Shown: positions 3,664 to 34,308 of the stretch, piece by piece
How positions within the stretch are numbered: position 1 is the stretch's first letter
Layout of the letters: the number at the start of each line of letters is the position of its first letter
Assembly (NCBI GenBank): GCA_017412245.1
Contig: JAFPYI010000040.1
Location: 1-40,448, forward strand
Direction: 5' to 3'
Source of the DNA: Paludibacteraceae bacterium
GTDB taxonomy: Bacteria; Bacteroidota; Bacteroidia; Bacteroidales; Paludibacteraceae
DNA length: 40,448 nucleotides
The notes under the pieces: model-generated
Told to the model about the DNA's origin: nothing
The model's input: only the letters and a program-made list of their open reading frames with translations
The model's database searches: none
Translations under genes and position numbers: made by a program

Positions 3664-3685
3664 GTTCGGTGTGAGTTTTGAGTTG

Positions 3686-3717: not shown

Positions 3718-3733
3718 TTTTTGTTTATCTTTG
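3703..3733 (+). promoter_or_regulatory. Promoter of the polyprenyl synthase gene
   Basis: The -33 box TTTG (3703-3706) and -7 box TATCTTTG (3726-3733) are 19 bp apart. The implied transcript begins about 10 bases before the ATG at 3751, giving a very short leader and arguing against the upstream TTG start at 3721. Confidence 0.72.
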
Positions 3734-3750
3734 CACGATTTTTCGCAAAT

Positions 3751-6241: not shown

Positions 6242-6258
6242 GCCCGAAAAAAGTTCTG

Positions 6259-6342
6259 TGCGCAGGATGAGACTCGAACTCACACGATCTTGCGACCACT
6301 ACCCCCTCAAAGTAGCGTGTATACCAATTTCACCACCTGCGC
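6259..6342 (-). tRNA. tRNA-Leu(GAG)
   Basis: This is an 84-nt class II tRNA. The acceptor arms GCGCAGG and CCTGCGC pair perfectly, with discriminator A at 6259. The D arm contains AAATTGGTATAC, the anticodon loop is TTGAGGG (anticodon GAG at 6306-6308), there is a long variable arm, and the T loop is TTCGAGT. The 3' CCA is not encoded. Confidence 0.93.
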
Positions 6343-6376
6343 ATTCGCGTTCGCACTATTTAGTGCTATTGACGCG

Positions 6377-6458
6377 TGCCCGGAACAGGACTCGAACCTG
6401 CACACCTCGCGGCATGCGCACCTGAAACGCACGCGTCTACCAATTCCGCCATCCGGGC
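6377..6458 (-). tRNA. tRNA-Leu(CAG)
   Basis: This is an 82-nt class II tRNA. The acceptor stem is GCCCGGA with TCCGGGC and discriminator A. The D loop contains AATTGGTAGA, the anticodon stem-loop is TGCGT-TTCAGGT-GCGCA with anticodon CAG, and a long variable arm and T loop TTCGAGT are present. CCA is not encoded. The 34-bp spacer to the next tRNA contains a hairpin (GCACTA-TT-TAGTGC), plausibly a processing site. Confidence 0.93.
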
Positions 6459-6469
6459 AAAAAAAAAGG

Positions 6470-6542
<73 letters not shown>

Positions 6543-10180: not shown

Positions 10181-10201
10181 GATACTTTTAAAAATGCAGC
10201 A

Positions 10202-10233
10202 CAAAAGTAGTATAAAAAAACGAAATCACCAAA
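10202..10233 (-). promoter_or_regulatory. Promoter of the PNGase F-like gene
   Basis: Minus-strand -7 box TACTTTTG (10202-10209) and -33 TTTG (10230-10233) are 20 bp apart. It faces away from the plus-strand promoter 10289-10320. Confidence 0.72.
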
Positions 10234-14415: not shown

Positions 14416-14432
14416 ATGCGTTTCAACGCATC
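14415..14432 (-). other. Inverted repeat across the stop codon of the beta-helix gene
   Basis: Arms GATGCGTT (14415-14422) and AACGCATC (14425-14432) are separated by two bases inside the TGA stop (14423-14425). It could form an RNA hairpin at the end of the message, as also seen at the end of the Nfn-like gene. Confidence 0.6.
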
Positions 14433-17141: not shown

Positions 17142-17173
17142 CAAAAGTACTATATTTTTTTGAAATATGCAAA
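17142..17173 (-). promoter_or_regulatory. Promoter of the beta-helix gene
   Basis: Minus-strand -7 box TACTTTTG (17142-17149) and -33 TTTG (17170-17173) are 20 bp apart, with an A-rich spacer. The -33 box lies inside a 20-bp perfect palindrome (17165-17184). The leader is about 70 bases. Confidence 0.78.
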
Positions 17174-17196: not shown

Positions 17197-20100
17197 TTAA
17201 TGGATTTTTTGTCCTAAAACAGTATAAACACCTGCGTTTCGTTGGATAAACAGGCAGCCATTTTGCAGATATTTATGTGCTGTCGTCTCTCCATCCGCCG
17301 TTTGTCCTATACCGCTTCCGGGTTGCACGTCTTCGGAAATCCATTGTGCACTTTCTGCCGGAGCCGACCAGTTATTTCTATCGTCCGAAGCAAAAGCAGC
17401 ATAGTAATACACCTGTCCCACTATCGCCGTAGCATCCACACAGGTCTCTACCGTTCCTCGATAGATTTCCGTACCATCGGCGACCGAGAGAGGAAAAGCA
17501 TTATCCTTACGCATGATAACCGTCTGCTGATAGTCCGGAGCCGGATAAACATCTCCGCTCAAATGAAGGTCATCAATATAAAACGTCCCATTGACCGCTG
17601 TGCCTGTGGATACCCCAAAAGAGAGACGCACCAGTCCTTCCAATTGGTTTTTCTCATCGGTATTGGCATACCAATCGAAGGACGACAAGGTACGCAAGTC
17701 GAGAGAAACCGTTTGCCAATTGGCATTGGAGAGATTAATGCTCTCTGTAAACCACCAGTCTTCATGACCGTTAGACATATTCTTGCACACTATACGCAAG
17801 GCTGTATTCGTTCCGTTGCCTTTCAAGCGGAAAGAGAGTGTAGGCGTCCGGTGTGCATCTGTAGCCGCATCCAGTACATAATCCGCAGAAGCCGTTGTCC
17901 ACGCTGTGGAGATGGCATAGTCGCATTTGAGCGTTCCATCAGCCACTGCTACTGTCATCATGGCTCCGGATTCGCTTTCTGCAACCATCTTTCCTACTCC
18001 ATCGCTGAAGTCAGTAAGCAGTTCATCCAAATGAACCAGATGGGTAGGATTAGCCCATGTGAGATGGTATTTGTCGTCTTTCAGATACCCACCCAAAGCC
18101 GTTGGAGCAGGCGGAGGAGTAGTGTCCTCCAAAAGATTGACTACAGCGGGTTTATTGCCCATGAACGTCTGCCCGCCGGAACGAATAACGGCGTAGACAT
18201 AATACTTGCCCTTCGGCATAATATCCCGTGTATGCCACATATATTTCTCCACTGTGCCGGATAAGCCTGTTACAATAGGCGTCATTCCTTCCACACTTGC
18301 AGCATTAGCCGTTTGGGAATAGTAAAACGACACTTCCGCATCACCCGCAGGGTCGAAAGTGAACCATCGGAGGAGAATAGAGTCCTCAACATTGACCTCC
18401 TGAGTGGGCACGGTAAAATTGACAGAAGGATTGATAATCTCACCGGAGAGCAAGAAATCATAAGTGTAGAATATATTGCCTACAGAGTCATACGCCGTGA
18501 GCGCAATCTTAGACGCATCAGCCGCCATATCCAAAGTCGAGAAACAAGAGACTTTCTTATAGAACATCGAGTACTGATAGTCCTTGAGTTGTTTTTGCTG
18601 GTCATAATTAGCGTCACGTCCACAGCCCGGACGGACATAATGAACTCCGTCCTTATAGAGGTGCTCGAACGAGTGGTCATCGCCTGAGAGACTGATGATA
18701 TGCTTGCCTTGCGCTGCATATTTCTCAAAGAGCGTTCCCATCTGGCGTGGTTCGTCTGCCCACTGGCCATGATAACCTGTGGTATGCACACCTACGTGGT
18801 GGCAGATGATAATCCACGGTCTGGAACAGACATTCAGAATAGAGTCCGCCCATTGGTATTGCCTGCTTCCCGGCAAGAAATGCGGTGAAGAAGGGTCTCC
18901 ATTGATATTAAGCATCACGATATCCGCGTTGCCATAGACGAAATGGAAATAAGCCTCTCCACGCGGATCGATTGTATCACCCTCAGACGCGCCCTCATGG
19001 CTGAACTGGTGGAAATAATCGTAATAAGACGACCAGCGGAAAGTGTTCGGATCGCCTGTCTCATGATTGCCGACAGACGACATCGTAGGCACTTGGCCCA
19101 GGAACTGTGCTCCGGGCGTGAAGAAATAGTTATTCCAGTTCCGGTCATTACCTTTGCTGCTGACGAAATCGCCGTTCATCAGGGAAATGTCGCAATTGAG
19201 CGCGCAGATGAAATCCTGCATATTGGACCAGTTATTGCGCGCATTGCCATGAATATCGGAAATCGAGAATATACGATAGGCGGTACCTGCCTCCGGTGCG
19301 GTTTTTGTAGAAGAGAGTTTATCGCAACGACGTGTAGCATTGGCGCCTACGGTAAAATAATAGCGCGTATTGGGTTGCAAGCCCGTGAGAGTGACTACGT
19401 GTACATAACCTTCGTCCGCAACATTCCATCCGCTGTTGGTCGTAATCTGTTGGTCCAGATGGTCAGGGTCTGTACCGTAATACACCAGCGCCTCGGTAGC
19501 TTCCGTCTCATCGTTCATCTGCCAGATGACCTTGACGGAATTAGTAGTTGGTGCCATAGAGTACGGCATTTTGGTAGGCACGTAGGGTTCGTCACTACTG
19601 TCGTGTTCTTCCGTAGAAACACCCCACCGCGGGTCACCGATGGTAGAACCGTCCGTGCCCATACCGACAGCAGGGCTGTTGGCGTAGAGTTGGAAATTAC
19701 CGTTCGGTGCATCTACGAAATACGGATTTCGATTCGGGCAGTTGGTCTGCACAGCACCTGTACCCAGTTTAATAGGAGCATTGAAACAGAGCGAGTTCTC
19801 TATCTTGGAGTTCGCTCCGTAGAGTGCATAACTGACCGATCCGGATATCTCTGCGGGATTCATAAAGATACAGTTGCTCACATACGCGCCGTCGATGTTC
19901 GCCAAATACACACCACGTGTGTCGGCACTGTTATAGAACGTGCAATGGTCAACTTTCAAGGTTCCCTGCAATGGCAAGGCCAGTTCCTCGTCTCCCGAAT
20001 GCAGGTAAATCATTCGCCCTGCACCATTCACTCCACCGTCGAAAGTACTATTTGTAATCAACAAACTCTTCAATTGTTTGGGTGTGACGGTAGCGGCAAC

Positions 20101-20595
20101 AGCACGAGGTAGGCCTTCTGCACCCTCAATCTTTTCCATTCGAAAGATACAATCATCGATAGTAAGAACATTCACATACGGAGCCGTTTGGTCGGTATTA
20201 TACGCGCGAATGAAATAAGAAGGACATCCGCTCAGTTCACACTTGCGTACGGTTACATCATACGCATTATCTCCCGGCACCATACGAATCGCTTCTGCGG
20301 TACTGTTAATCTTGATACCTTCAATAGTAAAGTCTGCTTTTACCTCAAAACGACTGGACAGAGAGAGCTCCGGTTTCGTGTTGTCAGCCGCTTTGATAGT
20401 TAGTGCTACTGTGGGTTTGACGGAAGATTCAGTATACGTTCCGTCTGTCAATACAAGAATATCTCCGGCAGAAGCATTGGTCACGGCCGTCTTTAATGTT
20501 CCCGAACCCGGAGAGACATTGACAGTAGCCGCGTTTACGCTATTGATTGCTGCCGAAAACAACAAGAAAATGCAAAAAGATAAATGTTTGTTCAT
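17197..20595 (-). CDS. Secreted beta-helix/metallophosphoesterase with CBM-like module and sorting-like tail
   Basis: The 1132-residue protein has a signal peptide ending near NSVNA. A beta-helix covers about 23-325, ending GTDGSTIGDPRW. A purple-acid-phosphatase-style fibronectin domain covers about 345-435, and a calcineurin-like phosphoesterase about 440-660. Metal motifs are SDIHGN (Asp447, His449), NGDF (Asp476), GNHE (Asn510, His511) and CHH (599-600), with SGDDHSFEH (638-645) where the family normally has GHxH; the first histidine is Asp639. Two beta domains follow: about 725-850, and a carbohydrate-binding-like sandwich at about 860-1030 (RLKGNGTNTALRIVCKN, YIDDLHLSG). The tail ends YTVLGQKIH. 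It is the most divergent of the four phosphoesterases. Substrate is unknown; phosphomonoester, phosphodiester and nucleotide hydrolysis are all possible. It follows the previous gene by 94 bases without a clear promoter. Confidence 0.82.
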   Translation of the reverse strand: MNKHLSFCIFLLFSAAINSVNAATVNVSPGSGTLKTAVTNASAGDILVLTDGTYTESSVKPTVALTIKAADNTKPELSLSSRFEVKADFTIEGIKINSTAEAIRMVPGDNAYDVTVRKCELSGCPSYFIRAYNTDQTAPYVNVLTIDDCIFRMEKIEGAEGLPRAVAATVTPKQLKSLLITNSTFDGGVNGAGRMIYLHSGDEELALPLQGTLKVDHCTFYNSADTRGVYLANIDGAYVSNCIFMNPAEISGSVSYALYGANSKIENSLCFNAPIKLGTGAVQTNCPNRNPYFVDAPNGNFQLYANSPAVGMGTDGSTIGDPRWGVSTEEHDSSDEPYVPTKMPYSMAPTTNSVKVIWQMNDETEATEALVYYGTDPDHLDQQITTNSGWNVADEGYVHVVTLTGLQPNTRYYFTVGANATRRCDKLSSTKTAPEAGTAYRIFSISDIHGNARNNWSNMQDFICALNCDISLMNGDFVSSKGNDRNWNNYFFTPGAQFLGQVPTMSSVGNHETGDPNTFRWSSYYDYFHQFSHEGASEGDTIDPRGEAYFHFVYGNADIVMLNINGDPSSPHFLPGSRQYQWADSILNVCSRPWIIICHHVGVHTTGYHGQWADEPRQMGTLFEKYAAQGKHIISLSGDDHSFEHLYKDGVHYVRPGCGRDANYDQQKQLKDYQYSMFYKKVSCFSTLDMAADASKIALTAYDSVGNIFYTYDFLLSGEIINPSVNFTVPTQEVNVEDSILLRWFTFDPAGDAEVSFYYSQTANAASVEGMTPIVTGLSGTVEKYMWHTRDIMPKGKYYVYAVIRSGGQTFMGNKPAVVNLLEDTTPPPAPTALGGYLKDDKYHLTWANPTHLVHLDELLTDFSDGVGKMVAESESGAMMTVAVADGTLKCDYAISTAWTTASADYVLDAATDAHRTPTLSFRLKGNGTNTALRIVCKNMSNGHEDWWFTESINLSNANWQTVSLDLRTLSSFDWYANTDEKNQLEGLVRLSFGVSTGTAVNGTFYIDDLHLSGDVYPAPDYQQTVIMRKDNAFPLSVADGTEIYRGTVETCVDATAIVGQVYYYAAFASDDRNNWSAPAESAQWISEDVQPGSGIGQTADGETTAHKYLQNGCLFIQRNAGVYTVLGQKIH

Positions 20596-20642
20596 GACTT
20601 TAGGTGGTTTTTAAAGATTTTAAGGTGAGTGGCATTGTCTCA

Positions 20643-20673
20643 CTCCTCCCCTCCCGCAAAAGGAGAGGAGGAG
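20643..20673. other. Strong GC-rich hairpin between two phosphoesterase genes
   Basis: CTCCTCCCCTCC (20643-20654) pairs with GGAGAGGAGGAG (20662-20673) with one mismatch around a 7-base loop. No T-run follows on the minus strand. GTGAG and CTCAC just beyond can form a second, competing stem. The element may set relative expression of the two genes or cap a processed transcript. Confidence 0.65.
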
Positions 20674-20689
20674 AAAGGCAATTATTATT

Positions 20690-23600
20690 TTATTCTTGTG
20701 CTACTTTTTGGCCAAGAACATTATAGATTTGTCCATTGAGGCGGATGAATACTTGTCCGTCGCGGATGAATTTCTCACCATCACGAGCAGGATTTGTATT
20801 GATTTCCTCAACACCTGAAGGAATAGTGTGCGGTTTGGTACGTTTCACGTTAATTGTGTTATAAACCGTCTTGTTGCCTGCGGCATCCGTCTTGTAGGTC
20901 TGTACTTCGATTCCTTCACTTGTCACATTGAACCGGCTGTAGCTTGGTGCACCCGGTTGGCCGAACTTCGTTGTGAAGAGATCAAACAAGTTCTGTACAT
21001 TATGGTGTTTGTAGTCATAGAGCAACGCCGGGTCGGTGGTGTATTCCTCCTCCATTGTCGCGCGGTTATACGGTTCGTAGCGCTTGCGTCCGCAAGTAGC
21101 TCCGATGAAATAGAGCGTACCGTCATTGGTGGTAAATGTGCCGCCTTCCAGACCGGTCTTGTTGTCACTGCTTCCCCAGCGGGAGTTATCCTCTGCGTGC
21201 ACGCGGGTGACGTCTGCAACGGCACCTTGCACCACAGTTTTGGTATCCGGATTGACCGGTCCAATCACTTCGTAGCAGTGGTCGTGCCCTTGAATAGCCA
21301 GGTCAATTTCACACTCTTTGAAGATCGGCAGCATCAGTGTGCGAATCAATGTACACTCGTCATCGGTATGGTGTCCGGCGCCGGAGAAGATATTCTTGTG
21401 CGAGAGAGTAACACGGTATTTCGCCTCAGGATGCGCAGCAATCTGCTCAACGAACCAGTTACGGATATCCTGTGTGAAATAAGTGGATTTCATTACGCTT
21501 TCGCTTGTCCCTGACTCACGCCACCAGTCTTGCATAGAGAAGACGAGGAAGAGCACGTCGCCATAGACGAAGCTATAGGTGATACCTTTGAATTGCGGTT
21601 TCACGGATGCCGCGTTGGCAAATCCCCAGTCCGTATTGAAGTGGTAGTCATAGTTCAGACTCGGGCTGTCGTCATGGTTTCCGTCCGTCGGCACTACAGT
21701 CATCTTGTTCAGCATCGGTCTCATGGACCCTTCGAACCAGCGTTCCCATTGCCACTCAGAGTTGGTGGAGCCTCCCGTATCTACGAAATCGCCCGGGAAG
21801 AGGCAGAACTTGACATCCGTCTCGTTCTTGGCTACCGCCTTTGCACATTGAAGTGCCTGCTCGATATACTCGGCATCCTGTATATGGCTGTCGGACATAT
21901 ATACGAACGAGAAATCGCCTTGGTTCTCATCCTTGGTCACAAACTGCGCTATCTCGCTCCAATGTCCGTCAAATCCTACACGCCAGCTGTAGGTAGTACC
22001 CGGTGTTAAGTTGGTAGCCTGAGCTTTATGGCTAACATAGTTGAACTTCGTGTTACGCGGCAGTCCTGCTGCAGTACAGATATCGTATTTAGGACTCTCA
22101 GAAGCCTGAATAGGTGTGTAGTGGAGAGTTGCAGGTTTGGTATCAGCAGAGAAAGTGAGCACCCCGTTGACAGAAGCGAAATCGTCCGCTGTAGCATTCG
22201 CCATCGGCAGCAGTTGTACTACACCATCCGTAATACCACCGTTGGTGAACCAGCAGAAGGCCATATTCGTTGCAGGATCGCCATTGATAGTAGCAATCTG
22301 GTTGTACGGATTCTCCTTCGGTTGGAGACGTGCAATAGCTTCGTTCATCAGAGCAATATTGCCTGCGATAGTCGGCAGCAGTTCTGCGTTATCAGGATCG
22401 AGACTATCGATTTTAGCAGCCGTCTTAGGAACGAGGAACTCGATATAGGAAGGAATAGTATAATCTTCCATCAGGTAGTTAGCCTCAGCGTCCAACACTT
22501 CCTGCGGATAGGTTACAGGCGGTTTCGGGGTAATAATTACCGTAGCTGCAGCAGGGTATGAGCCATCCTGAGTAACTACACGAGCAGTAGTCGTTCCGGG
22601 TGCTACACCGGTCACTTTACCGTTTTTGATGGTAGCAATAGTCTCATCGTCAATCGACCACTCAACGCGTTTGTTGCTGGCGGTCAGAGGTTCTACTTGT
22701 GCTACCAGAGTACCTGTCTTGCCTTCGATGATTTCGATAGAAGCAGGTACAATGCTAACACCTGTTACAGCAATTTTTACTGCATCCGGGTCGTATTCAT
22801 AAGCACCTACGTCAATGCCTGTTCCTTTTGGACGTACAACACCATTGATATCCTTTGCGGGTGCACCATCAGCAGCACCTAAGTCAAGAAGTGTAGCAGA
22901 AGCATCGGTGATAGCGAAACTAGCATTACGCATCGCTTCTTTTTCAACATCCGTCTTCGGCAAACCGATAAAACCTGTAGGGTTCAGGAAGTTAGGACCT
23001 GTTGCATCGCTATTGTTTGCAGACAGACTACGATTGATAAAACAAGCAGATTCAGAACCTGCATCGCCTACGTTATTGGAACCACCTGTAGCAACGAAGT
23101 TTACATTCGAATAATCCGTTGTGTTGCCCCAGAAAACATTATTGACTCCTTTACCGGAAATACGGCTACCGGCATAACGAGTACCGGTGTTGTTACAAAC
23201 CGTATTGTTGTAGAACGTACCTGCGCCATACAAACATCCGTTGTAGTCGGAATGGTTGTTATAGAGGACACAGTTGCGAACCTCAGCACCTGCATCAGCA
23301 CGAATACCGCCGACAGCAGCAGTACAGCCACGAATGATACAGTTCTCAACGATAGTTCCTGTTTGGGCACGAATAGCACCGGCTCCACTCTCGGCTGCTG
23401 TAGATGAGCAGTACTCAAAAAGACAGTTGCTAATCGTTGCCGGCATGGTTGTAGCACCTTGCTCCGTAAAGATTGCTCCGGCATTAGAGGTGCTCGCACA
23501 GTTACGGAAAACACAATTGTTAACCGTCATATTTCCACGCATAAACATTCCTGCTGCTCCCCATTCGCTATGGTTAGCATTTTGGAATACAAGACCATCG

Positions 23601-23953
23601 ATTATGATTAGGTTGGCAGGAGGAGCATCATACTTCACGAGCAGCCAAGAGGTCAGACCTGTACCGTCCAAAATGGACTCATACAACTCCGGGTCACGCT
23701 CACCTGTCTCGGCATTGTAACCACCAAGATAGATGGCACCGTTTTGGGCTGAAATAGACTCGTTGTAAACACCTTCGGCAATAAACATTGTATCACCTAC
23801 TCCAACACTCCAAATGGCCTGTGCAATAGTATGCACGGCATTTGCCCATGATTTACCGTCACCATCGCTTCCTGTCGGAGAAACGTAACGGTTGCTTGCT
23901 GACGCGCACAGCACCGCTGTGCAAAGCGTCAAGATTGTGAATAGTTTTTTCAT
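20690..23953 (-). CDS. Secreted beta-helix/Big2/metallophosphoesterase with sorting-like tail
   Basis: The 1087-residue protein starts MKKLFTILTLCTAVLCASAS. Residues about 21-390 form a beta-helix of the polymorphic-membrane/right-handed type (NRYVSPTGSDGDGKSWANAV, repeated NNCVFRNC-like turns, ending GTGIDVGAYEYDPD). A bacterial Ig-like (Big2) domain lies at about 395-475, a helical linker at about 485-548 and a fibronectin-like domain at about 550-675. The metallophosphoesterase spans about 680-940: DSH (688-690), GDFVD (721-725), DGNHDD (757-762), His852 in LSHKN and GHDHCYE (889-895). All metal ligands of the family are present. The Tyr of true purple acid phosphatases (GDxxY) is Asp here, so the enzyme should not be purple. 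The tail KFIRDGQVFIRLNGQIYNVL is followed by GQKVAQE. It is the third member of the cluster in transcription order. Confidence 0.85.
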   Translation of the reverse strand: MKKLFTILTLCTAVLCASASNRYVSPTGSDGDGKSWANAVHTIAQAIWSVGVGDTMFIAEGVYNESISAQNGAIYLGGYNAETGERDPELYESILDGTGLTSWLLVKYDAPPANLIIIDGLVFQNANHSEWGAAGMFMRGNMTVNNCVFRNCASTSNAGAIFTEQGATTMPATISNCLFEYCSSTAAESGAGAIRAQTGTIVENCIIRGCTAAVGGIRADAGAEVRNCVLYNNHSDYNGCLYGAGTFYNNTVCNNTGTRYAGSRISGKGVNNVFWGNTTDYSNVNFVATGGSNNVGDAGSESACFINRSLSANNSDATGPNFLNPTGFIGLPKTDVEKEAMRNASFAITDASATLLDLGAADGAPAKDINGVVRPKGTGIDVGAYEYDPDAVKIAVTGVSIVPASIEIIEGKTGTLVAQVEPLTASNKRVEWSIDDETIATIKNGKVTGVAPGTTTARVVTQDGSYPAAATVIITPKPPVTYPQEVLDAEANYLMEDYTIPSYIEFLVPKTAAKIDSLDPDNAELLPTIAGNIALMNEAIARLQPKENPYNQIATINGDPATNMAFCWFTNGGITDGVVQLLPMANATADDFASVNGVLTFSADTKPATLHYTPIQASESPKYDICTAAGLPRNTKFNYVSHKAQATNLTPGTTYSWRVGFDGHWSEIAQFVTKDENQGDFSFVYMSDSHIQDAEYIEQALQCAKAVAKNETDVKFCLFPGDFVDTGGSTNSEWQWERWFEGSMRPMLNKMTVVPTDGNHDDSPSLNYDYHFNTDWGFANAASVKPQFKGITYSFVYGDVLFLVFSMQDWWRESGTSESVMKSTYFTQDIRNWFVEQIAAHPEAKYRVTLSHKNIFSGAGHHTDDECTLIRTLMLPIFKECEIDLAIQGHDHCYEVIGPVNPDTKTVVQGAVADVTRVHAEDNSRWGSSDNKTGLEGGTFTTNDGTLYFIGATCGRKRYEPYNRATMEEEYTTDPALLYDYKHHNVQNLFDLFTTKFGQPGAPSYSRFNVTSEGIEVQTYKTDAAGNKTVYNTINVKRTKPHTIPSGVEEINTNPARDGEKFIRDGQVFIRLNGQIYNVLGQKVAQE

Positions 23954-24074
23954 ACGCGTTACTTTTAAATGTTTAACGTTAGTGTATTTTGAATTTAGTT
24001 ATTGCGTTTTTTTATCCAACTAATTATAGCATACGATAAATTTCGTTCCCTAATTTCTATATAGTTAATTAGAT

Positions 24075-25883: not shown

Positions 25884-25884
25884 A

Positions 25885-28329
25885 TCAATGAGTTATTTTA
25901 ATGGTGTTAAATAATTCTGTTTTTCCGTTAGGTAACACCTTGAAGGATTCTAACAATAAATGTTTTTTCTTAACCGTTACCCGTGTGTAACTCGGAGCTC
26001 CCGGTTGGCCAAACATACCCGTGAACAAGTCGAAATAATTCTCCACCTGATGAATATGTTTTGAGGTCTCCATCTCTTCGCGTGACAACGGAGTATAGCG
26101 TTTAGCTCCGCATGTGGCGCCAATAAAATACAAGGTTCCCTCACTTACGTCATAAGTACCGTTTTTATAACCGGTAATATTGCTTACGGCATCTACAGCA
26201 ACCTTCTTGCGATGACTAATCGCTGATGTGATGGGTTGCCGTGTTTCTGGATCTACAGGCCCTATCACTTCGTATGTATGGTCATGCCCTTGGAGCACAA
26301 GATTTATCTTGCAGTCTTTCATCACCGGCAGTAATGTCGCACGAAGTAAGGGTGTCTCTTTATCACGCTGATGGTCCGAACCCGAGAACAAATTCTTATG
26401 CACCAATCCTACTCGCCATTTAACATTCGGTGCTGTCGCTACCTGCCTGCGGAACCAACCTCCAAGGTCGCGCTCTAAATATTCCGATGTTTGCGTTTGA
26501 TAGTCATATTCGCCTCTCCAGAAATCCTGCTCGGAGAAAGCAATTAACTGCAAATCACCATAGACAAACGAATAGTTGATACCTGCGAATTGCGGGCGGA
26601 CTTTTGTAACCAAATTAAAGGTTGTATCCGTATTAAAATGGTAGGTATAATTCAGCAGCGGTGAGTCATCATGATTGCCGTCCGTAGGTACTAACGGCAT
26701 CTGCTGCAGTACAGGTCTGAGCGCCTCTTCAAACCAGCGTTCCCATTCCCATTCAGAGTTATTTTCGGTTCCCGTATCTACAAAATCACCGGGGAACACA
26801 CAAAAACGAGCAGACTTTTCGTTTTTGGCTACAGCCTCAGCACATAATCGAGCTGCGTCTATATATTCCTGATTTTGAATATGACTGTCTGTCATATAAA
26901 TGAACGAGAACTCGCCTTGCCGTTCGTCTGCTGTACGAAAGTGACCTATCTCGCTCCAATGACCGTTGTATCCGACACGGTAAGAATAATCTATTCCCGG
27001 ACTCAGTTGAGTCGCCAATGCTTTGTGACTCACATAACGGAAAGCAGTATTTTTATTCAGTTTGGCTGTTTTAAGAAGACCGGAAGTAGAAATAGCATAA
27101 TGCAACGGCATCGTTGTAGTTGCGGTAGCCGGAATAGTGAGTAGTTTATCGGCTTTCTCAAAATCGCCTGCCGAGGCTTTTTTCTTAGCTATAATCTGTA
27201 CCTCTCCCTCTGTTATTCCTTCATTAGTAAACCAACAGAATCCCATCCTCGTACGCGGGTCACCGTTAATAGTTGCCACCATACAATAGGGTTCTTCTTT
27301 CGTGACGAGTGTACTTGTCGAATCTTGAAGGAATTGAATAAACGAAGGAATGGTATAATCGATAGAGCGATAAATCGTATTATTTACCTGTTTCTCATAT
27401 GGGAACGACACTAAATTAGCCGAGTTGTAAGCACGTGGAGAAACAGGAGGCATCGATGCAATATGATGAGTCGGTTCTCCTATACTATAATCCGCTGCAA
27501 GCATGATAGCCTGTTCGGCATCCGTAGTCGGCACACCTGCAAACGTAGCCGGATCACGGAAATGCGGTCCGTCTGCAGCCTCGTTTTCTGCTGCTAACCA
27601 CGGTTTAACGAAGAAATGATCTTCAAATCCCTCGTCCGCTCTGCTAATGCCGGACTCGCTCTCATCGGAGATATAGTTAGCCGGATCTACAAAACCGTAC
27701 TCATTGCGATTGCCCCACAATGTACAGTTGTAAACCGAACTCTCCGAGTGAATGCCTCCATAGCGATCACCATAACAATTGACTATGGTACAGTGGTTCA
27801 ATATGCCGTCAAAATTTGCCACACCGCCTGCATCCGGCCATTCGCGTCCCGTAGCAGAGCAGTTGTGTATTAAACAATCTTCTAAGGTAGCACCCAATGC
27901 TGAAGCTTCCGGCAGATTGCCTTTGATAAGCACACCACCGCATTGTACACCGCTACATCCGCGAATAATGCAATGACGCATCGTTACTTTTCCGCGTAAC
28001 CATGCACCTCCACCCAATTGGTCATGACGTGCATTTTGAAGAATGAGATTCTGCACCAGAGTCGGAGATTGGCAATCCTCATTGCAGGTGATGAGTCGTG
28101 TACTAAGTCTGTTTCCGTCTAATATAACCGTACCCACACCTATAATCGCCACGCCATCTTTAAGTACAATACTCTCTTGATAGACACCTTCATCGATATA
28201 TAAGGTATCACCTGATTGCGATTGATTGATGAGTGGTTGGATGGACGTATTATGCACATACCATGCAGCCGCTGACGTGTTAATCGCCAGCGCCACAAAG
28301 CATATAAATATGTAAATCCTACGACTCAT
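25885..28329 (-). CDS. Secreted beta-helix/metallophosphoesterase lacking the sorting-like tail
   Basis: The 814-residue protein has a signal sequence in MSRRIYIFICFVALAINTSA. The beta-helix spans about 22-300 (VRLKD-type strands such as NLILQNARHDQLGGGAWLRG and repeated C-I-I-R/H turns). The fibronectin-like domain starts MVATINGDPRTRMGFCWFTN (350-369). The phosphoesterase begins at 473: DSH (481-483), GDFVDTG, DGNHDDSP, a VHKN histidine and GHDHTYE. The protein stops at LFNTIKITH, exactly where its neighbours continue into the 40-60 residue segment carrying the shared tail, so it should be localised differently (periplasmic or freely secreted). It lies 30 bases after the PfkB kinase gene and 1 base before the next paralogue, which ties the phosphoesterases to the sugar-catabolic operon. 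Confidence 0.86.
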   Translation of the reverse strand: MSRRIYIFICFVALAINTSAAAWYVHNTSIQPLINQSQSGDTLYIDEGVYQESIVLKDGVAIIGVGTVILDGNRLSTRLITCNEDCQSPTLVQNLILQNARHDQLGGGAWLRGKVTMRHCIIRGCSGVQCGGVLIKGNLPEASALGATLEDCLIHNCSATGREWPDAGGVANFDGILNHCTIVNCYGDRYGGIHSESSVYNCTLWGNRNEYGFVDPANYISDESESGISRADEGFEDHFFVKPWLAAENEAADGPHFRDPATFAGVPTTDAEQAIMLAADYSIGEPTHHIASMPPVSPRAYNSANLVSFPYEKQVNNTIYRSIDYTIPSFIQFLQDSTSTLVTKEEPYCMVATINGDPRTRMGFCWFTNEGITEGEVQIIAKKKASAGDFEKADKLLTIPATATTTMPLHYAISTSGLLKTAKLNKNTAFRYVSHKALATQLSPGIDYSYRVGYNGHWSEIGHFRTADERQGEFSFIYMTDSHIQNQEYIDAARLCAEAVAKNEKSARFCVFPGDFVDTGTENNSEWEWERWFEEALRPVLQQMPLVPTDGNHDDSPLLNYTYHFNTDTTFNLVTKVRPQFAGINYSFVYGDLQLIAFSEQDFWRGEYDYQTQTSEYLERDLGGWFRRQVATAPNVKWRVGLVHKNLFSGSDHQRDKETPLLRATLLPVMKDCKINLVLQGHDHTYEVIGPVDPETRQPITSAISHRKKVAVDAVSNITGYKNGTYDVSEGTLYFIGATCGAKRYTPLSREEMETSKHIHQVENYFDLFTGMFGQPGAPSYTRVTVKKKHLLLESFKVLPNGKTELFNTIKITH

Positions 28330-28359
28330 CTAAATCTCTTCTCTTCAGCAATGGTTTCG

Positions 28360-29304
28360 TCAATTCCAACCGAATCTTTCTCTACCAATACGTTCCACAT
28401 CCTCACGATTGGTAAAAGCGGTGGTGCCACCTGCGGCAGTAGTATTGACCGCTCCGGTCATATTACCATATTGTTGGCAGATATCCAATGCATCACCGGC
28501 AGCGAGACGAGTAATAAATCCAGAGTTGAAAGAATCTCCGGCACCTATACAATCTACCACATTCTTATTCAGAAGCGCTGCTTGCATGCGATCCGGTTGA
28601 CCTTTACGCATCAATAGCGAACCTCGACTACCGCATTTGATAACTGCCGCATTGGCGTACGGACGTATCTTCTCGATTGCCTCCTCCAAAGATTGGCTAT
28701 GTGTCAAGAATTTCAATTCGGTCTCGTTTGGCATAAATACCGTCAACATCGGCAATACTGCCTTGTAGTCCAAGTCCCATTGCTCTACAGGATCCCATTG
28801 AGTATCTAACGAGGTGGTTACACCATTCTCTTTGCAGAGCGCCAGAATCTTCATCAAATCACGTTTCACACCACTCTGCATAAAGATAGAAGAAATATGA
28901 ATATGTTTTGCCTCTTTGAATACCTCAGGATTAATATCTTCCAGCGACATAAAATCCATAGCTCCCTGATAGGTCAAATTAGCACGATCTTCATCGTAAC
29001 TCATACAAATAGTAGCACCTGTAGCATATTTGTCTTGACGAATGAGATAGCGGGTGTCAACACCTTTTTTCTGCAGACTGGTTTCTACTAAATCTCCGAA
29101 ACTATCATTACCGATCATTCCGCAGAAAGCTACTTTGGCTCCCAATGCAGCTGCATTGGCAGCAAAAATAGCGGTTGAACTACCCAAGGTAAGCGTCATC
29201 TGCTTAGCAAATTTCTCTTTACCTATTTCCGGTTCGCTCTCAATCTGATTGAGAATTAAATCTACGTTTAATTCGCCTAAGGCGATAATATCAAATTTTT
29301 TCAT
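28360..29304 (-). CDS. PfkB-family sugar kinase, candidate tagatose-6-phosphate kinase
   Basis: This is a cytoplasmic ribokinase-fold kinase of 314 residues. Motifs are the N-terminal ALGELNVDL, the glycine-rich GSSTAIFAANAAALGAKVAF (41-60) followed by GMIGNDSFG, and the C-terminal PfkB signature DCIGAGDSFNSGF with catalytic Asp257. The sequence does not define the sugar. Its position between AgaS- and GatZ-like genes makes tagatose-6-phosphate (to tagatose-1,6-bisphosphate) the best guess; ribose, fructose or ketodeoxygluconate kinases look similar. The ATG at 29304 gives the normal N-terminus MKKFDIIALG; the longer frame to 29394 overlaps the esterase gene and adds an unrelated tail. The gap to the upstream gene is 19 bases. 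Confidence 0.88.
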   Translation of the reverse strand: MKKFDIIALGELNVDLILNQIESEPEIGKEKFAKQMTLTLGSSTAIFAANAAALGAKVAFCGMIGNDSFGDLVETSLQKKGVDTRYLIRQDKYATGATICMSYDEDRANLTYQGAMDFMSLEDINPEVFKEAKHIHISSIFMQSGVKRDLMKILALCKENGVTTSLDTQWDPVEQWDLDYKAVLPMLTVFMPNETELKFLTHSQSLEEAIEKIRPYANAAVIKCGSRGSLLMRKGQPDRMQAALLNKNVVDCIGAGDSFNSGFITRLAAGDALDICQQYGNMTGAVNTTAAGGTTAFTNREDVERIGRERFGWN

Positions 29305-29323
29305 GGGGTCTATTTTTTGCTTA

Positions 29324-30703
29324 TTACATGAATTTTCTGAAGAAGGCCAGAGGGCTCCATCCTGAAGGATAATCATGCCCCATCTCCGGTCCAAAGATGT
29401 ATTGTTTCTTCGATTCCTCTGTGGCTAAGTTATTAAATGGCACTACGTTGGTTCGTGGAGGACATACACGATCCTGCAAGCCACTGCTGGCCATTACGGC
29501 TGCAGAGATACGGGTTGCTAAGTTTTTGGTATCGAAATAAGAGAAGAAAGCCACCATTTCTTCTTTGGTCATCGAGCCTTGACAACTCTTGGCTGTCTCT
29601 GCCGCCAATCCGCCCACATCGATACCCTCATCAAAATCGCCCAAGAATGCCACGTTTGCAGCAATGGCGGTAAATGGATAGTCGCTCAATCCGGCAGCGG
29701 CATAACAGAGTGCGCCGCCCTGACTGGAACCTTCCGCAAAAAGTTTCGTCATGTCACTTGTAGAGCGAGTAGCCATAAAACGTACTGCCTGTACGCAGTC
29801 CATAAACGCGCCACGGTAGTAATAACTATCTTTGTCTCCAAAATGATACGAGAACCAATCACCATAGATATTAGTCAAATCACCTAATCCGTCGGGTTCA
29901 CGTGACGATTCCGGACGGTTGTTGATATACTGGCCACGATGCGACAGATAGAACTCTGCATACTGTGAAGAACCTCCGGAAGGGCACTCCACTCGAGTGG
30001 TTACATTTTGGTAGTCATACCCGTAGAAATGCATGATTACCGGATGTTTCTGACCATCTTGCGGTTCACAGTAATAACCGCGAACTACTACCGGTTCTCC
30101 TGTTAGGCCATCCGGGACAGAATTGAGTTCCACCAGATACACTTTGCGTGAAGCACTGCTCTTGTTGGGCAGCTCAATCAGATGCGCATTCATATCAATA
30201 TCTGCCAATTGATTTTTAGCGGTTTGCCAGAACTCGTCATAATCCGTTTGCTTGGTAGGACCGGATACGATGTCAAACGGATCGATTCCAAAATAGAAAC
30301 CCTTAGCCGTTTTACCATTCACATAACAATAAGCATAATAGAATCCCGGTTCCAGATTGTCAGGCGTGGTGACGATGACATCTATCGAATTATTTGCCGG
30401 CACATCCACACTATCTGTCAAAGTCACTACAGCCGCTTTTTTATCAGTTATAATCCTTACCATTGTTCCAACTTTTACCTTCATCTTGTTACCATTCTCA
30501 ATATGAATAGTAATCTGAGGTTTACCGCTCCAAACCCAATTATTCGTAACCGGTACTGATTGCTTGATTAACGACAAATCGGGTTTTTCTTGAGGAGTTG
30601 GGTCTGGTTCTGTACTCGGAGTTGTTCTCTCGCACCCGCACGCACCCATTAAAACTATGGACGCGAGCGCGAGTGCAAAGATATAAAATCGTGTGTGTTT
30701 CAT
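29324..30703 (-). CDS. CE7-like acetyl xylan esterase family lipoprotein
   Basis: The 459-residue protein starts with a lipoprotein signal whose lipobox is LMGAC (Cys22), followed by a Ser/Thr/Pro-rich linker. Residues about 40-145 form an N-terminal beta domain. Residues about 150-459 are an AXE1/CE7 alpha/beta hydrolase: DEFW (156-159), MHFYGYD oxyanion region, RGQYINN, nucleophile Ser327 in GSSQGG, Asp411 in GLQDRVCPP and His443 in MGHDYP. CE7 enzymes remove acetyl groups from sugars; here the acetyl could be on a galactosamine glycan, which is inference. The product is predicted to face the periplasm or surface. It sits between the aldolase-subunit gene (29 bases) and the kinase gene (19 bases), so it is co-transcribed with amino-sugar catabolism. 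Confidence 0.87.
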   Translation of the reverse strand: MKHTRFYIFALALASIVLMGACGCERTTPSTEPDPTPQEKPDLSLIKQSVPVTNNWVWSGKPQITIHIENGNKMKVKVGTMVRIITDKKAAVVTLTDSVDVPANNSIDVIVTTPDNLEPGFYYAYCYVNGKTAKGFYFGIDPFDIVSGPTKQTDYDEFWQTAKNQLADIDMNAHLIELPNKSSASRKVYLVELNSVPDGLTGEPVVVRGYYCEPQDGQKHPVIMHFYGYDYQNVTTRVECPSGGSSQYAEFYLSHRGQYINNRPESSREPDGLGDLTNIYGDWFSYHFGDKDSYYYRGAFMDCVQAVRFMATRSTSDMTKLFAEGSSQGGALCYAAAGLSDYPFTAIAANVAFLGDFDEGIDVGGLAAETAKSCQGSMTKEEMVAFFSYFDTKNLATRISAAVMASSGLQDRVCPPRTNVVPFNNLATEESKKQYIFGPEMGHDYPSGWSPLAFFRKFM

Positions 30704-30732
30704 TTCTTGGATTTTTAATCGTTGAATGTGTA

Positions 30733-31962
30733 TTATTTTAGATAATCATTCAAATTCACGATATTGAATGCATTGTAGTATTTATCCATATTGTGCTCAA
30801 TACGCATCAACACTACCTCTTCTGCGTGGATACCTAAACGCTCCAAGTTATCATATAGTGTCTGACGTGCTACTAATGCTTCAGGTTTTTGCCAGATGTA
30901 ACGGCAACCGGTTTTAACTAACCATAACTGACGCTCTTTTGTGCAGTCCTTTAGGTCTTTTCCTACTTCCTCTCCGTGTAACCATTTTTTCCAACGGTTG
31001 GACTCATACACACATTGCCAAAGCACATCTGTCATGTGGCTCAATTGAGCTACCTTGCCCTCTGCGAACAGTTTCTTTTCCTCTTCTTCCAATTCTGCCA
31101 ATGCATCGTATTCGTTCATTGTAAACTCCGGTCCTACATTAGCGGCACCCATGCCTGCCTTTGGATAATCCTCAGGATTCTCCACGTCATCACTATAGTG
31201 ACCCTTGATATAACTACCGTAAGGACGAACCTTAGCCGTCAATTTACGTGCCACTTCCGGATCAAAGAAAGTGGTATGCAGATCCGTACCTACCTTACCT
31301 ACAATGAAGCATGGCCAGATATCATCCAAACCTACCTCATGCAGACCTTGTTTCAGTCCCTCGAGGAAAGTGTCAAAAGTTTTCTCGTCTGCCAGACCTC
31401 CGTGAACCTCTTCAGTACCTACTTCGTAGCTGATTGGAGCTATATTATGTGCTTTGCGGAAATCCTCAGCATGCTTAATCAACTCCACTGTACGTTTAAC
31501 CACTACATGGATATCAATAATCTCGCCTTTCGGTAGGAAAATATCTACAGTCGGGTCTACGTGAATCAAGTCGTAACCTGCCAAAATAGCAGCCTCATAA
31601 CTCTTCTTCACACCGTTCATTGCACGCTCAGTATCCCAACGCTCAATGCTTTGTTTGTCTTTCAACCACGGGCCTCCGTGATCGATAGCTACTACATACG
31701 GGCCTGTATAATGAACAGCAGCAGCCTCACGAGCTAAAATCTTCGTGAACATCTCCTGTGTCATACCTGTATAACCACCATCACAATCAACTTGATTCAG
31801 TGTGGTAGCGAAATAGATAGGTGAGTTATTACGTTTCGCTGCGCGGAACGAAGCCTTGATTACTGATAAGGAGTTCGGGCAAGCTGCAAATAGTGTCATA
31901 GGAACTCCGGTTGCTTTTTTTCTTTCCTCCATCACGCGGAGGATGTTTTCAGTCTTTGCCAT
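30733..31962 (-). CDS. gatZ: GatZ/KbaZ-type D-tagatose-1,6-bisphosphate aldolase subunit
   Basis: Members of this family are annotated as the non-catalytic, stabilising subunits of class II tagatose-bisphosphate aldolase, which splits tagatose-1,6-bisphosphate to DHAP and glyceraldehyde-3-phosphate. The 409 residues are the expected length. Characteristic blocks are PMTLFAACPNSLSVIKASFR, FATTLNQVDCDGGYTGMT, VVAIDHGGPWLKD, IHVDPTVD, ISYEVGTEEVHGG and KVGTDLHTTFFDPEVA. No GatY/KbaY catalytic partner is in the window, so either it lies elsewhere or this homologue is active alone or on another sugar. It follows the AgaS-like gene by 56 bases that include a GCGGC hairpin. Confidence 0.88.
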   Translation of the reverse strand: MAKTENILRVMEERKKATGVPMTLFAACPNSLSVIKASFRAAKRNNSPIYFATTLNQVDCDGGYTGMTQEMFTKILAREAAAVHYTGPYVVAIDHGGPWLKDKQSIERWDTERAMNGVKKSYEAAILAGYDLIHVDPTVDIFLPKGEIIDIHVVVKRTVELIKHAEDFRKAHNIAPISYEVGTEEVHGGLADEKTFDTFLEGLKQGLHEVGLDDIWPCFIVGKVGTDLHTTFFDPEVARKLTAKVRPYGSYIKGHYSDDVENPEDYPKAGMGAANVGPEFTMNEYDALAELEEEEKKLFAEGKVAQLSHMTDVLWQCVYESNRWKKWLHGEEVGKDLKDCTKERQLWLVKTGCRYIWQKPEALVARQTLYDNLERLGIHAEEVVLMRIEHNMDKYYNAFNIVNLNDYLK

Positions 31963-31983
31963 AATATTTTGTTTTTGATTATT

Positions 31984-32024
31984 GGTCTTTATTCTTTTAG
32001 CGGCCCTGCCGCGGTCTTTTATTC
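31984..32024 (-). repeat. GCGGC hairpin flanked by GGTCTTTATTC direct repeats
   Basis: GCGGC (32000-32004) and GCCGC (32008-32012) enclose CCT. GGTCTTTATTC (31984-31994) and GGTCTTTTATTC (32013-32024) flank the hairpin in direct orientation. On the minus strand the AAAAGACCGC stretch recalls AAAGACCGCTGC in the repeat at 4745-4803. Confidence 0.55.
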
Positions 32025-33140
32025 ATAAATAATCACGCCTTCCACTACACGGTGGATATTTCCACTTACGCTCGGAGCATCAGGATTCAATCCGTGTGCT
32101 TTGGAAGCATAGAAACCTAATAACTGACCTACCAGCACAAACGGGACAATACCGTAAAAATCGTTATCAGCATAGCCGTAAGGCATTTTTACTACCAGAT
32201 CAGCCTTTACATCCGGCAACTCGGGTTGTTTGCCGGCACAAACAATAACTTGTGCCACAGGTTTGTTGTTGGCATCCACTTGCTTAACCAAATCGCGCTC
32301 ATAGCGTTGTACTGCTTCTTGATCGGTCATCAGATATACAACGAGCGATTTGTTATTTACTACTGCTTTCGGTCCGTGACGGAAACCGAGGAAGGAATCA
32401 AACTTGCAGACTACTGCTCCGTCTGTCAATTCCTGAACTTTCAAGTGGCACTCTTCAGCAATACCTTTCAGCGCACCCGAACCAAGGAACACGCCACGCT
32501 CGAACTTGCGCTCTGCAATAGCTTTCAGTTTATCCTCATACTCTGCAATAACAGTTTCAGCGTTCTTCGCTGCTTTTTCTACTTTTTCTGCATCCTTCTC
32601 CAGATTGTCAATATGACCCAACATCAGACAAGTCAGTAACATGGTAGAAAAACTACTTGTCATTGCCAATGATTTGTCATCGGTTTCTTCCGGCAACAGC
32701 AATAAAAGAATATTATCTTTGCCTGCTGCTTGTTGCGCAAGTTTTCCGTTTTTGTTGCAAGTAATATAAACGTGTGCTACATTCTTGCAGAGTTTATTAG
32801 CCAGATTAACCGCGCCTACACTCTCCGGGCTGTTTCCCGAACGAGCAAAACTAATGAGCAATAACGGACGTTCTTTGTCTAACAGATACTTCGAGTGAGT
32901 AATCAAATCTGTGGTCGGCACCGAACGAACGTTTCGCCATATGCCACGCATTACCGGACAAATAGCATCACCAATAAATGCTGATGTGCCGGCACCGGTC
33001 AGAACGATATCTGTATCAGAGGTGAGATACTTGTGCATAAATGCACTGATTTCTGCTTTGGCGCTTAATAATGCCTGAAGTTCCTTGCGCCACATTGCCG
33101 GTTGTTGATGAATCTCATCAAATGTAAAAGAAGTTGCCAT
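32019..33140 (-). CDS. agaS: AgaS-type SIS-domain galactosamine-6-phosphate deaminase/isomerase
   Basis: AgaS converts galactosamine-6-phosphate to tagatose-6-phosphate and ammonia in GalNAc/galactosamine catabolism; older annotations say tagatose-6-phosphate ketose/aldose isomerase. The 373 residues carry two SIS domains: the first with VLTGAGTSAFIGD (46-58) and ISFARSGNSPES (96-107), the second with VFLGSGALKGIAEE, ELTDGAVVCKFDSFLGFRHG and PKAVVNN. The FRHGPKA motif is typical of AgaS and GlmS isomerase domains. It is cytoplasmic. It lies 38 bases after the DeoR regulator and leads the catabolic genes, which matches known aga clusters in other bacteria. Confidence 0.9.
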   Translation of the reverse strand: MATSFTFDEIHQQPAMWRKELQALLSAKAEISAFMHKYLTSDTDIVLTGAGTSAFIGDAICPVMRGIWRNVRSVPTTDLITHSKYLLDKERPLLLISFARSGNSPESVGAVNLANKLCKNVAHVYITCNKNGKLAQQAAGKDNILLLLLPEETDDKSLAMTSSFSTMLLTCLMLGHIDNLEKDAEKVEKAAKNAETVIAEYEDKLKAIAERKFERGVFLGSGALKGIAEECHLKVQELTDGAVVCKFDSFLGFRHGPKAVVNNKSLVVYLMTDQEAVQRYERDLVKQVDANNKPVAQVIVCAGKQPELPDVKADLVVKMPYGYADNDFYGIVPFVLVGQLLGFYASKAHGLNPDAPSVSGNIHRVVEGVIIYE

Positions 33141-33178
33141 GTTGTATATTGTTTTTGAATTAATAAAAATCGTTGTTT

Positions 33179-33958
33179 TTATACCGCTTTCACCTCAATA
33201 CCTATGCCGCGAAGACGAGAAGCTATACCTGCCGGAATCACGCGGTCGGTTACTATACAGTCCAGTTCATTCACGTCAGCTACATGGACATAACTGCGTT
33301 TATTGAATTTCGAGGAATCAAAAACGGCTATCACTTTCGCTGCTTGTTGAATCATCACTTGGTTTAGCAATGCCTCTTCAAGACTCGGTGTGGATACTCC
33401 GTTCTCTAATGAGAATGAGTCTACACCCAGGAATAACTTATATCCACTAAAATTACGAAGCACCGACAAGGCTAATGGTCCTACTGTTGAGTGACTATTC
33501 ACACGAACATTTCCACCCAGCAGCACAACGTCAAATCGCTTATACGTCATCAACTCTGTAGCTATATTCATCGCATTGGTGATGATATGCAGATTATGGA
33601 AACTGCCTAAATGACGTGCTACCTCCAACGTGGTTGTACCGGAATCTAACATTATAAAATCACCATCCTTAATCATCTTGGCGGCCTCTGCTCCAATACG
33701 TTCTTTCTCGCGAACATTGAACATCTGCTTTTTTGTAATCGCAGTATCACCGTTCTCATTCTCAATTGGTTTACGCATTGCTCCACCACGAGTGCGAACA
33801 ATCAAATTTCGGTTTTGAAGAACTGTGAGATCTTTGCGAATCGTGACCTCCGAAATACCGGTCTCGCGACTGAGGTCGGTTACCTTGACCTCTTCGCTAT
33901 GCTCTAAAAGTCTTAAAATAAGGGCTCTACGCTCTTTTGCTGATGATGTCATATTCAT
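33179..33958 (-). CDS. DeoR/GlpR-family repressor, candidate AgaR-like regulator
   Basis: The 259-residue cytoplasmic regulator has an N-terminal DeoR helix-turn-helix (KVTDLSRETGISEVTIRKDL, 25-44) and the GGAMRK linker. The C-terminal sugar-phosphate sensing domain has the family motif LDSGTTT (104-110), followed by GGNVRVNSHSTVGPLAL and VFDSSKF. The ATG at 33958 is chosen because it lies downstream of a good promoter; the open frame to 34204 would extend over that promoter. It heads the catabolic operon and is divergent from the lipoprotein/GH36/SusC operon. The intergenic region contains many TTTCG half-sites, as expected for DeoR-family operators, so it probably represses both directions until a sugar phosphate binds; that is inference. 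Confidence 0.88.
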   Translation of the reverse strand: MNMTSSAKERRALILRLLEHSEEVKVTDLSRETGISEVTIRKDLTVLQNRNLIVRTRGGAMRKPIENENGDTAITKKQMFNVREKERIGAEAAKMIKDGDFIMLDSGTTTLEVARHLGSFHNLHIITNAMNIATELMTYKRFDVVLLGGNVRVNSHSTVGPLALSVLRNFSGYKLFLGVDSFSLENGVSTPSLEEALLNQVMIQQAAKVIAVFDSSKFNKRSYVHVADVNELDCIVTDRVIPAGIASRLRGIGIEVKAV

Positions 33959-34021: not shown

Positions 34022-34308
34022 TAGTTTATTTATATGTTTTGTAACATATTTCCGAAACATTTGCCAGTAAAACACTGAAAATGAGCTATTTATACTTTCG
34101 CAAACCATATTTCGTAATGTTTCGATAATAGACCTTCCATATACATTACTCAAAAAAAAATTGCCCAAAAAGGTGATTTTATTATTTCGATAATTTCGAA
34201 ACATTGCGAAATATGGTTTCGATGTTTTTATGCGACACTAATCGTTTGATTTTGTGAAAGTTATATGCATTTCGCGGAAAATATGTTGTAAAGCATAATA
34301 TCAATATA

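Follow-up and report, generated by a model that had tools for sequence, protein, structure and literature searches.

A predicted galactosamine-glycan utilization locus carrying linked metallophosphoesterase genes in a rumen lineage of Paludibacteraceae

We analysed a 40,448-nucleotide stretch of DNA (the window), which is the entire contig C24 of a 1.4-Mb Paludibacteraceae genome (62% complete, 41 contigs), and found that genes for amino-sugar catabolism run on into genes for four metallophosphoesterases (MPE1–4). The window probably holds a utilization locus for a galactosamine (GalN) glycan, controlled by a DeoR/AgaR-type regulator, that gained exported MPEs in one rumen lineage of the Paludibacteraceae. 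The evidence read from the sequences comprises the family-level identities of the genes, their operon layout, their linkage and co-occurrence within the genus, a common operator word, the lack of GatY in MPE-bearing genomes and the scarcity of NagA. The genes of the locus are as follows.

33179–33952, minus strand: DeoR-family regulator, AgaR-like (Pfam DeoRC and HTH_DeoR; NCBIfam AgaR 240.8 bits, cut-off 260)
32019–33140, minus strand: AgaS-like galactosamine-6-phosphate deaminase/isomerase, SIS (TIGR02815 371.7 bits, below the 529.2 cut-off; PDB 3odp, E 1e-80)
30733–31962, minus strand: GatZ/KbaZ-like protein, predicted tagatose-6-phosphate/fructose-6-phosphate 4-epimerase (PF08013; NCBIfam 87.4 bits against a cut-off of 568.8)
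29324–30703, minus strand: CE7 (AXE1) esterase, putative lipoprotein (PF05448, 137 bits; lipobox LMGAC read by eye)
28360–29304, minus strand: PfkB/ribokinase-type sugar kinase (PF00294; best NCBIfam models IolC and ribokinase, both below cut-off)
25885–28329, minus strand: MPE1, with a beta-helix-like N-terminus, a purple acid phosphatase N-domain (Pur_ac_phosph_N) and a Metallophos domain; no sorting tail seen
24075–25883, minus strand: MPE2, with Pur_ac_phosph_N, Metallophos and a tail like that of other proteins of the genus
20690–23953, minus strand: MPE3, with a choice-of-anchor-Q region, Big_2, Pur_ac_phosph_N, Metallophos and a tail
20596–20689, minus strand: MPE3–MPE4 spacer with a 13-bp G+C-rich hairpin, a possible termination or processing point (-30.4 kcal/mol, z -4.0)
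17197–20595, minus strand: MPE4, with a DUF5123/beta-helix region, Pur_ac_phosph_N, Metallophos (GDxH variant) and a tail
34384–35481, plus strand: AmH, an Amidohydro_2 putative lipoprotein, candidate extracytoplasmic N-deacetylase or lactonase (PF04909)
35521–37395, plus strand: GH36 putative lipoprotein, alpha-galactosaminidase-like (PDB 8x1b/9awt, E ~1e-55)
37428–40400, plus strand: SusC-family TonB-dependent transporter (TIGR04056, 768.9 bits); the contig ends just after it

The genes from DeoR to MPE4 all lie on the minus strand, separated in transcription order by 38, 56, 29, 19, 30 (PfkB–MPE1), 1 (MPE1–MPE2), 121 (MPE2–MPE3) and 94 (MPE3–MPE4) bases. The PfkB start was placed at 29304, so that CE7 is not overlapped; the TTG start given in the list of open reading frames had implied an overlap. 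No promoter-like or terminator-like match was found in the 30 bases after PfkB (28330–28359), in scans that ran at chance level (31 sigma-70 matches against 36.1 expected and 16 terminator matches against 15.1). Reading frames, families and gaps thus agree with the original prediction, made from these letters, of five sugar genes followed by two MPEs at 30 bases and 1 base and by two more on the same strand, in a run not split after the kinase gene. Of the four MPEs that it placed in one run, MPE4 lies behind the hairpin, which has no T run and a single match in the genome; on account of this hairpin MPE4 may be off the shared message. The SusC gene that it had described as divergent is on the opposite strand but does not adjoin DeoR, since AmH and GH36 sit between them.

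Conservation of this arrangement was assessed on 56 relative loci from Paludibacteraceae and uncultured Bacteroidales metagenome-assembled genomes (AgaS 78–93% identity), which are close kin and not independent events; those with a stated source come from ruminants, in some cases from the rumen, reticulum or omasum. PfkB was present on 50 of these stretches and missing from 6. Two of them, L089 and L132, end soon after PfkB and were not judged for adjacency. Among the 48 evaluable loci, the next same-strand gene after PfkB is an MPE in 47, at a median gap of 42 bases (ATG starts only), and the exception, L124, has AmH in that place. DeoR, AgaS, AmH and GH36 occur together on stretches L094, L104, L120, L122, L124 and L125, and the G087 locus has an alkaline phosphatase gene one gene downstream of MPE2. 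The linkage in relatives that had been anticipated is therefore borne out within the genus.

We further examined co-occurrence at the level of whole genomes. Full-length AgaS was found in 15 genomes of a 200-genome family sample, the window's own included (completeness of at least 90% in 12 of the 15; 62% in the window's genome); weak matches in other genera (G023, G037, G094 and G096) were left out of this count. The genus sample of 35 genomes, which includes the window's own, divides into 12 with AgaS and 23 without. MPE2-type matches at E <1e-100 were present in 11/12 AgaS genomes versus 0/23 genomes lacking it, in a search that took the best 6 candidates per genome, so that a weak MPE could escape. 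Seven of the 23 gave short tail matches only (G050, G070, G142, G150, G167, G175 and G183; E 4e-5 to 8e-4), which were not counted. Fisher's test on the 34 genomes besides the window's gave P = 8e-8 with kinship ignored, a value that serves as a guide only because the genomes are related. Likewise, GH36 was found in 12/12 AgaS genomes of the genus, and none of the 23 AgaS-less genomes was among the GH36 matches.

A DeoR-type operator word, TTTCG-N5-TTTCG, marks the regulatory regions of the locus, and two copies lie between DeoR and AmH in the window.

34110–34125, plus strand: operator copy TTTCGTAATGTTTCGA
34196–34211, minus strand: operator copy TTTCGCAATGTTTCGA

Of 60 distinct AgaS upstream sequences, 46 carry the word in the 350 bases before the gene (shuffled mean 0.1), and it also stands upstream of DeoR (20/21), AmH (7/13) and the beta-helix gene (20/35), the last often through a spacer shared with AgaS. 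Being common to the AgaS/DeoR and AmH sides, it supports the tie to the divergent SusC operon that had been proposed. It was found upstream of neither CE7 (0/51), PfkB (0/55), MPE1 (0/27) nor MPE2 (0/19), as expected if these genes are read from the AgaS promoter. The strict form TTTCGNAANNTTTCGA gave 37 placements in a scan of 12 of the 15 AgaS genomes (reversed pattern, 0); 31 of the 37 are at the locus or beside locus genes on another contig, and several represent both strands of one palindromic site. In G138, one strict site precedes an MPE3–MPE4–beta-helix run, after the HAD gene, and another is flanked by an extra DeoR gene and an additional MPE3 gene. In G087, a strict site precedes CE7–beta-helix–MPE3–MPE4, and a second MPE run, after DUF4832, has no strict-form site of its own. 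MPE runs that do not adjoin PfkB thus keep the word. Away from the locus, sites occur ahead of a DUF4832 gene and, in G165, in the spacer that recQ shares with an MFS sugar transporter gene; others are without clear target. The window's DeoR protein would be the one to bind this word.

Two of the off-locus sites are recorded as side observations. The site in the recQ spacer of G165 lies ~80 bases upstream of the MFS sugar transporter gene (L208:3903-5249), whose product is a candidate galactosamine permease. A site in the window's own genome (L204, C22:25000-34500) lies between a DUF6377 gene and an fn3-protein gene, with SusC-like genes following.

The cytoplasmic half of the pathway is well supported by homology and distribution. 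AgaS, a predicted deaminase/isomerase, matches PDB entries 3odp, 3i0z and 3c3j; GatZ carries D.GGPW or DHGGP together with YEVGTEE in 68/68 copies, and [IK]GHYSD in 57/68. Both proteins score below the NCBIfam cut-offs, and their E. coli names are therefore given by homology. Together with the regulator and the operon layout, these homologies uphold the call of an amino-galactose catabolic operon. The deacetylase NagA/AgaA (TIGR00221), which is needed for N-acetylgalactosamine (GalNAc) and not for GalN, was found in 1/15 AgaS genomes (G168), while the same search matched 14/14 control genomes, 7 of them above cut-off. Because NagA is so scarce and GH36 is closest to an alpha-galactosaminidase, the data favour GalN over GalNAc, so that the predicted sugar stands as galactosamine, GalNAc is now held less likely to be what enters the cytoplasm, and the locus appears better named a GalN utilization locus. 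In PMC5583593, AgaS without AgaA is taken as galactosamine use.

An orthologue of the aldolase subunit GatY was found in 4/15 AgaS genomes, each time within the operon and in a genome lacking MPE2-type matches. None was found in the 11 genomes where such matches are strong, which suggests that GatZ may act there as a lone 4-epimerase. FbaA-like partial matches (35–47% identity; 10 of the 11 MPE-bearing genomes, with none in G193) were not counted as GatY. As regards chemistry, E. coli GatZ and KbaZ are described in PMC11907403, in its account of C4 epimerization, as converting fructose-6-phosphate to tagatose-6-phosphate. In the kinase search, PF01869 was above cut-off in 4/15 AgaS genomes, the window's not among them, and the annotated genes include no phosphotransferase system (PTS) gene, although no search was aimed at PTS or ROK kinases.

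Outside the cytoplasm, AmH and GH36 both carry lipoboxes, read by eye. AmH has no PDB relative by sequence search; its residues H63, H65, H194, H251 and D306 (HxH, H, H, D) are invariant in 17 sequences. The best PDB matches of GH36 are 8x1b and 9awt, the Flavonifractor plautii alpha-galactosaminidase (~190 bits; next entry 64 bits). Among the residues named for this enzyme (FpGalNase) in PMC11762096, W317, D346, D347, W387, K461, D463, C513 and D532 are kept in 14/14 sequences. The window's contig stops after SusC, and SusD directly follows SusC in relatives L065, L137 and L140.

The MPEs carry signal sequences, read by eye, in line with the proposal that they are exported. Of the 115 distinct MPE sequences, 112 keep the metal-ligand pattern (93 GHxH, 19 GDxH) and three distant ones lack it, which makes catalysis likely. 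MPE4 further shows carbohydrate-binding-like matches, below cut-off. Other proteins of the genus give short matches to the MPE2 tail, and SprA of type IX secretion was found in 7/7 genomes examined of the 15 with AgaS. In a tree of 40 sequences (window plus 19 chosen loci), MPE2 and most MPE3 form old clades, MPE1 is an open set at the base and MPE4 sits on a very long branch; on this grouping, the idea of a single recent tandem array was dropped. The lineage of MPE4 is a very distant one, and its gene may have a transcript of its own.

From these genes we infer the following path, in which all substrates, the phosphorylation of the glycan, what AmH does and which enzyme is the kinase are predictions. 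Exported enzymes would open the glycan, and the MPEs would hydrolyse phosphate monoesters or diesters on it. The GH36 lipoprotein would free alpha-linked galactosamine, possibly once the AmH lipoprotein has taken off an N-acetyl group, and the product would be imported by SusC/SusD and an inner-membrane permease. A kinase, PfkB being the operon's best candidate, would give GalN-6-phosphate; AgaS would convert this to tagatose-6-phosphate and ammonia, and GatZ alone would turn tagatose-6-phosphate into fructose-6-phosphate. For the phosphate half of this scheme, the hints are the common operator word, the co-occurrence in the genus and the intact metal sites: exported MPEs apparently placed under the same operator as the sugar genes hint at phosphate on the glycan, which they may remove before import, as had been proposed. 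The substrate could, at low confidence, be an alpha-galactose (alpha-Gal)/alpha-GalN phosphoglycan, which other rumen microbes might carry on their surface. The teichoic-acid-like substrate that the original prediction gave as an example gained no support and was not contradicted either. A more detailed version is a tentative proposal, doubtful when taken whole: a phosphorylated alpha-GalN glycan would be attacked outside the cytoplasm by GH36 and by AmH as a new deacetylase family, paralogous exported MPEs would strip its phosphate, and AgaS followed by a lone GatZ epimerase would replace NagA and tagatose-bisphosphate aldolase.

MPE2-type genes are missing from the core in G111 of the same genus, in three other genera (G075, G168 and G031) and in another family (G520), which suggests that the core is older and that one rumen lineage of the Paludibacteraceae acquired the MPEs later. 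In G111, G075, G168 and G031, which gave no MPE2-type match, AgaS–GatZ–PfkB is followed by a GatY-kind class II aldolase. The run then continues with AmH, GH36, SusC and SusD in G111, with AmH up to the contig end in G075, and with GH36, SusC and SusD in G031; in G168, the sole genome with NagA, an SSF symporter comes next. G520 has DeoR and AgaS–PfkB–GatY–GH36, with SusC–SusD–DUF4832–EamA and AmH ~5 to 18 kb beyond AgaS; neither GatZ nor an MPE was matched on its two examined stretches. In a sample of 395 genomes from the class, a GH36 match at E <=1e-30 was otherwise seen in the window's genome alone.

Several observations weigh against the proposed locus function. Outside the genus, MPE2 relatives (E <1e-40; best stretches 34–52% identity) occur in 12 family genomes, none with full-length AgaS; two of the 12, G006 (L142) and G164 (L143), have MPE3–MPE4 beside SusC and DUF4832 without an AgaS match, the latter with GH31 nearby. 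The operator word is rare before MPE3 (2/37) and MPE4 (3/28) and was not found before HAD–NahK (0/7) or DUF4832 genes (0/12), and G111 lacks the strict form, with a looser word upstream of AgaS (L136). No Pfam or NCBIfam match to a curated C-terminal sorting domain was obtained in the tails of MPE1–4, and the phosphate on the substrate is without direct sign. AmH relatives in G441 and G477 adjoin sugar dehydratase or oxidoreductase genes, which makes a lactonase a fair alternative for AmH, and the examined stretch of G031 carries GH36 but not AmH, in a genome that gave no NagA match. In GH36, Y464 of FpGalNase, the ninth of the residues named in PMC11762096, is not kept, and the eight kept may be common to GH36 alpha-galactosidases, so that Gal and GalN are not separated by them. 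Finally, G520 has AgaS–PfkB–GatY without GatZ on the stretch examined, and PfkB there is therefore most simply a tagatose-6-phosphate kinase; if the same were true in the window, the hexosamine 6-kinase would be unfound.

We considered whether the MPEs are instead general phosphate scavengers, phytase-like or nucleotide-directed, that stand behind the sugar genes by chance. Phytate is plentiful in the rumen, and the solved structures nearest to the MPE profile are purple acid phosphatases, led by 6gja and 6git, the latter presumably a wheat phytase-type enzyme; the 12 genomes outside the genus with MPE relatives and no AgaS also fit scavenging. Like purple acid phosphatases, the MPEs combine an N-terminal FnIII-like domain with a Metallophos domain. 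In contrast to them, the MPEs have DxH as first motif, carry beta-helix or anchor regions in three of the four, and lack the metal-site tyrosine of GDxxY (GDFVE in MPE2, GDFVD in MPE1 and MPE3, GDFVS in MPE4; the G-D-F-V-E-D-G columns are invariant across 24 MPE2 sequences); for want of this tyrosine, purple acid phosphatase was dropped as a label. Given also the lack of strong MPE2-type matches in the 23 AgaS-less genomes of the genus and the sugar-operon operator word before the detached MPE runs of G138 and G087, scavenging by chance neighbours is unlikely. As a separate observation, an MPE gene in G094 lies directly 3' of a GH92 gene (L144:7817-12593), a neighbour that would fit a wider use of the MPE family on other phosphoglycans.

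Ordinary catabolism of GalNAc from host mucin or salivary glycans, in which GH36 frees GalNAc, an unrecognized deacetylase acts inside the cell and the MPEs are incidental, could draw on the PNGase-F-like protein at 9038–10204 and the NahK-like kinase domain at 11871–13568, and AgaS marks GalNAc and GalN pathways alike (PMC5583593); the scarcity of NagA against its recovery in every control genome, the lipoboxes on AmH and GH36 and a best GH36 match to an enzyme for the deacetylated sugar make this improbable. We give just as little credence to an unphosphorylated alpha-Gal/alpha-GalN polymer (galactosaminogalactan or a bacterial exopolysaccharide) whose minor ester groups are cut, or which is bound, by the MPE domains: GH31 genes belong to the locus type of G111 and G138 and lie beside MPEs in G164, whose GH31 (the only one compared with PDB) is close to the alpha-galactosidases 8j50/8j53, but the metal-ligand pattern makes catalysis likely, and MPE2 and MPE3 have been kept as old paralogue groups beside MPE1.

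The pieces of the preferred GalN-glycan locus are known, and their combination appears to be a new variant of a utilization locus; no described system with this combination was met among the best-ranked literature titles, from which absence from print is not established. Polysaccharide utilization loci of Bacteroidota are usually regulated by hybrid two-component, SusR or extracytoplasmic function (ECF) sigma systems. The locus resembles them in SusC, in SusD (in relatives), in exported hydrolases and in a common operator word, and differs in its DeoR-type regulator and in metallophosphoesterases in series. With the E. coli aga/kba operon it has in common an AgaR-type regulator and AgaS and GatZ/KbaZ homologues. 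It differs from that operon in the scarcity of NagA/AgaA, the lack of GatY in the 11 MPE-bearing genomes, SusC-type uptake in place of an annotated PTS, and exported phosphoesterases. In the human gut set of PMC5583593, the agaS–agaA GalNAc pathway is assigned to Actinobacteria, Firmicutes and Proteobacteria, and the passage concerned does not name Bacteroidetes. As to the FpGalNAcDeAc/FpGalNase pair of F. plautii in PMC11762096, the window's GH36 has FpGalNase as its nearest solved relative, with eight residues kept and Y464 not, and the amidohydrolase lipoprotein AmH takes the neighbouring place. If AmH deacetylates alpha-GalNAc, it would be a second, unrelated partner for galactosaminidases, and deacetylase/galactosaminidase pairs are under study as a means to convert type A blood cells. 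The locus offers a small, testable enzyme set for a GalN glycan that rumen bacteria may use and points to where phosphate should be sought, and the operator word can guide a search for the kinase and permease that are still missing.

Genes beyond the run include the following.

14423–17068, minus strand: beta-helix DUF5123/DUF4957 protein, own promoter possible
17142–17149, minus strand: TACTTTTG, an element upstream of the beta-helix gene resembling the Bacteroidetes -7 consensus
11871–13568, plus strand: HAD phosphatase fused to a NahK-like N-acetylhexosamine kinase (4ocu, 4wh1), often near AgaS in relatives
10351–11874, plus strand: DUF4874/DUF4832 protein, of a family that recurs in these loci

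A kinase and a sugar-phosphatase in a single chain are an odd pairing; L137 has the NahK-like part alone and L077 the HAD part alone. The protein at 9038–10204 matches the PNGase F C-terminal domain at 25.6 bits against a cut-off of 25. Further off, a DUF4846 protein (2017–3852) is unrelated to the locus as far as seen, and three tRNA genes (Leu, Leu, Gly) stand in a row at 6258–6542.

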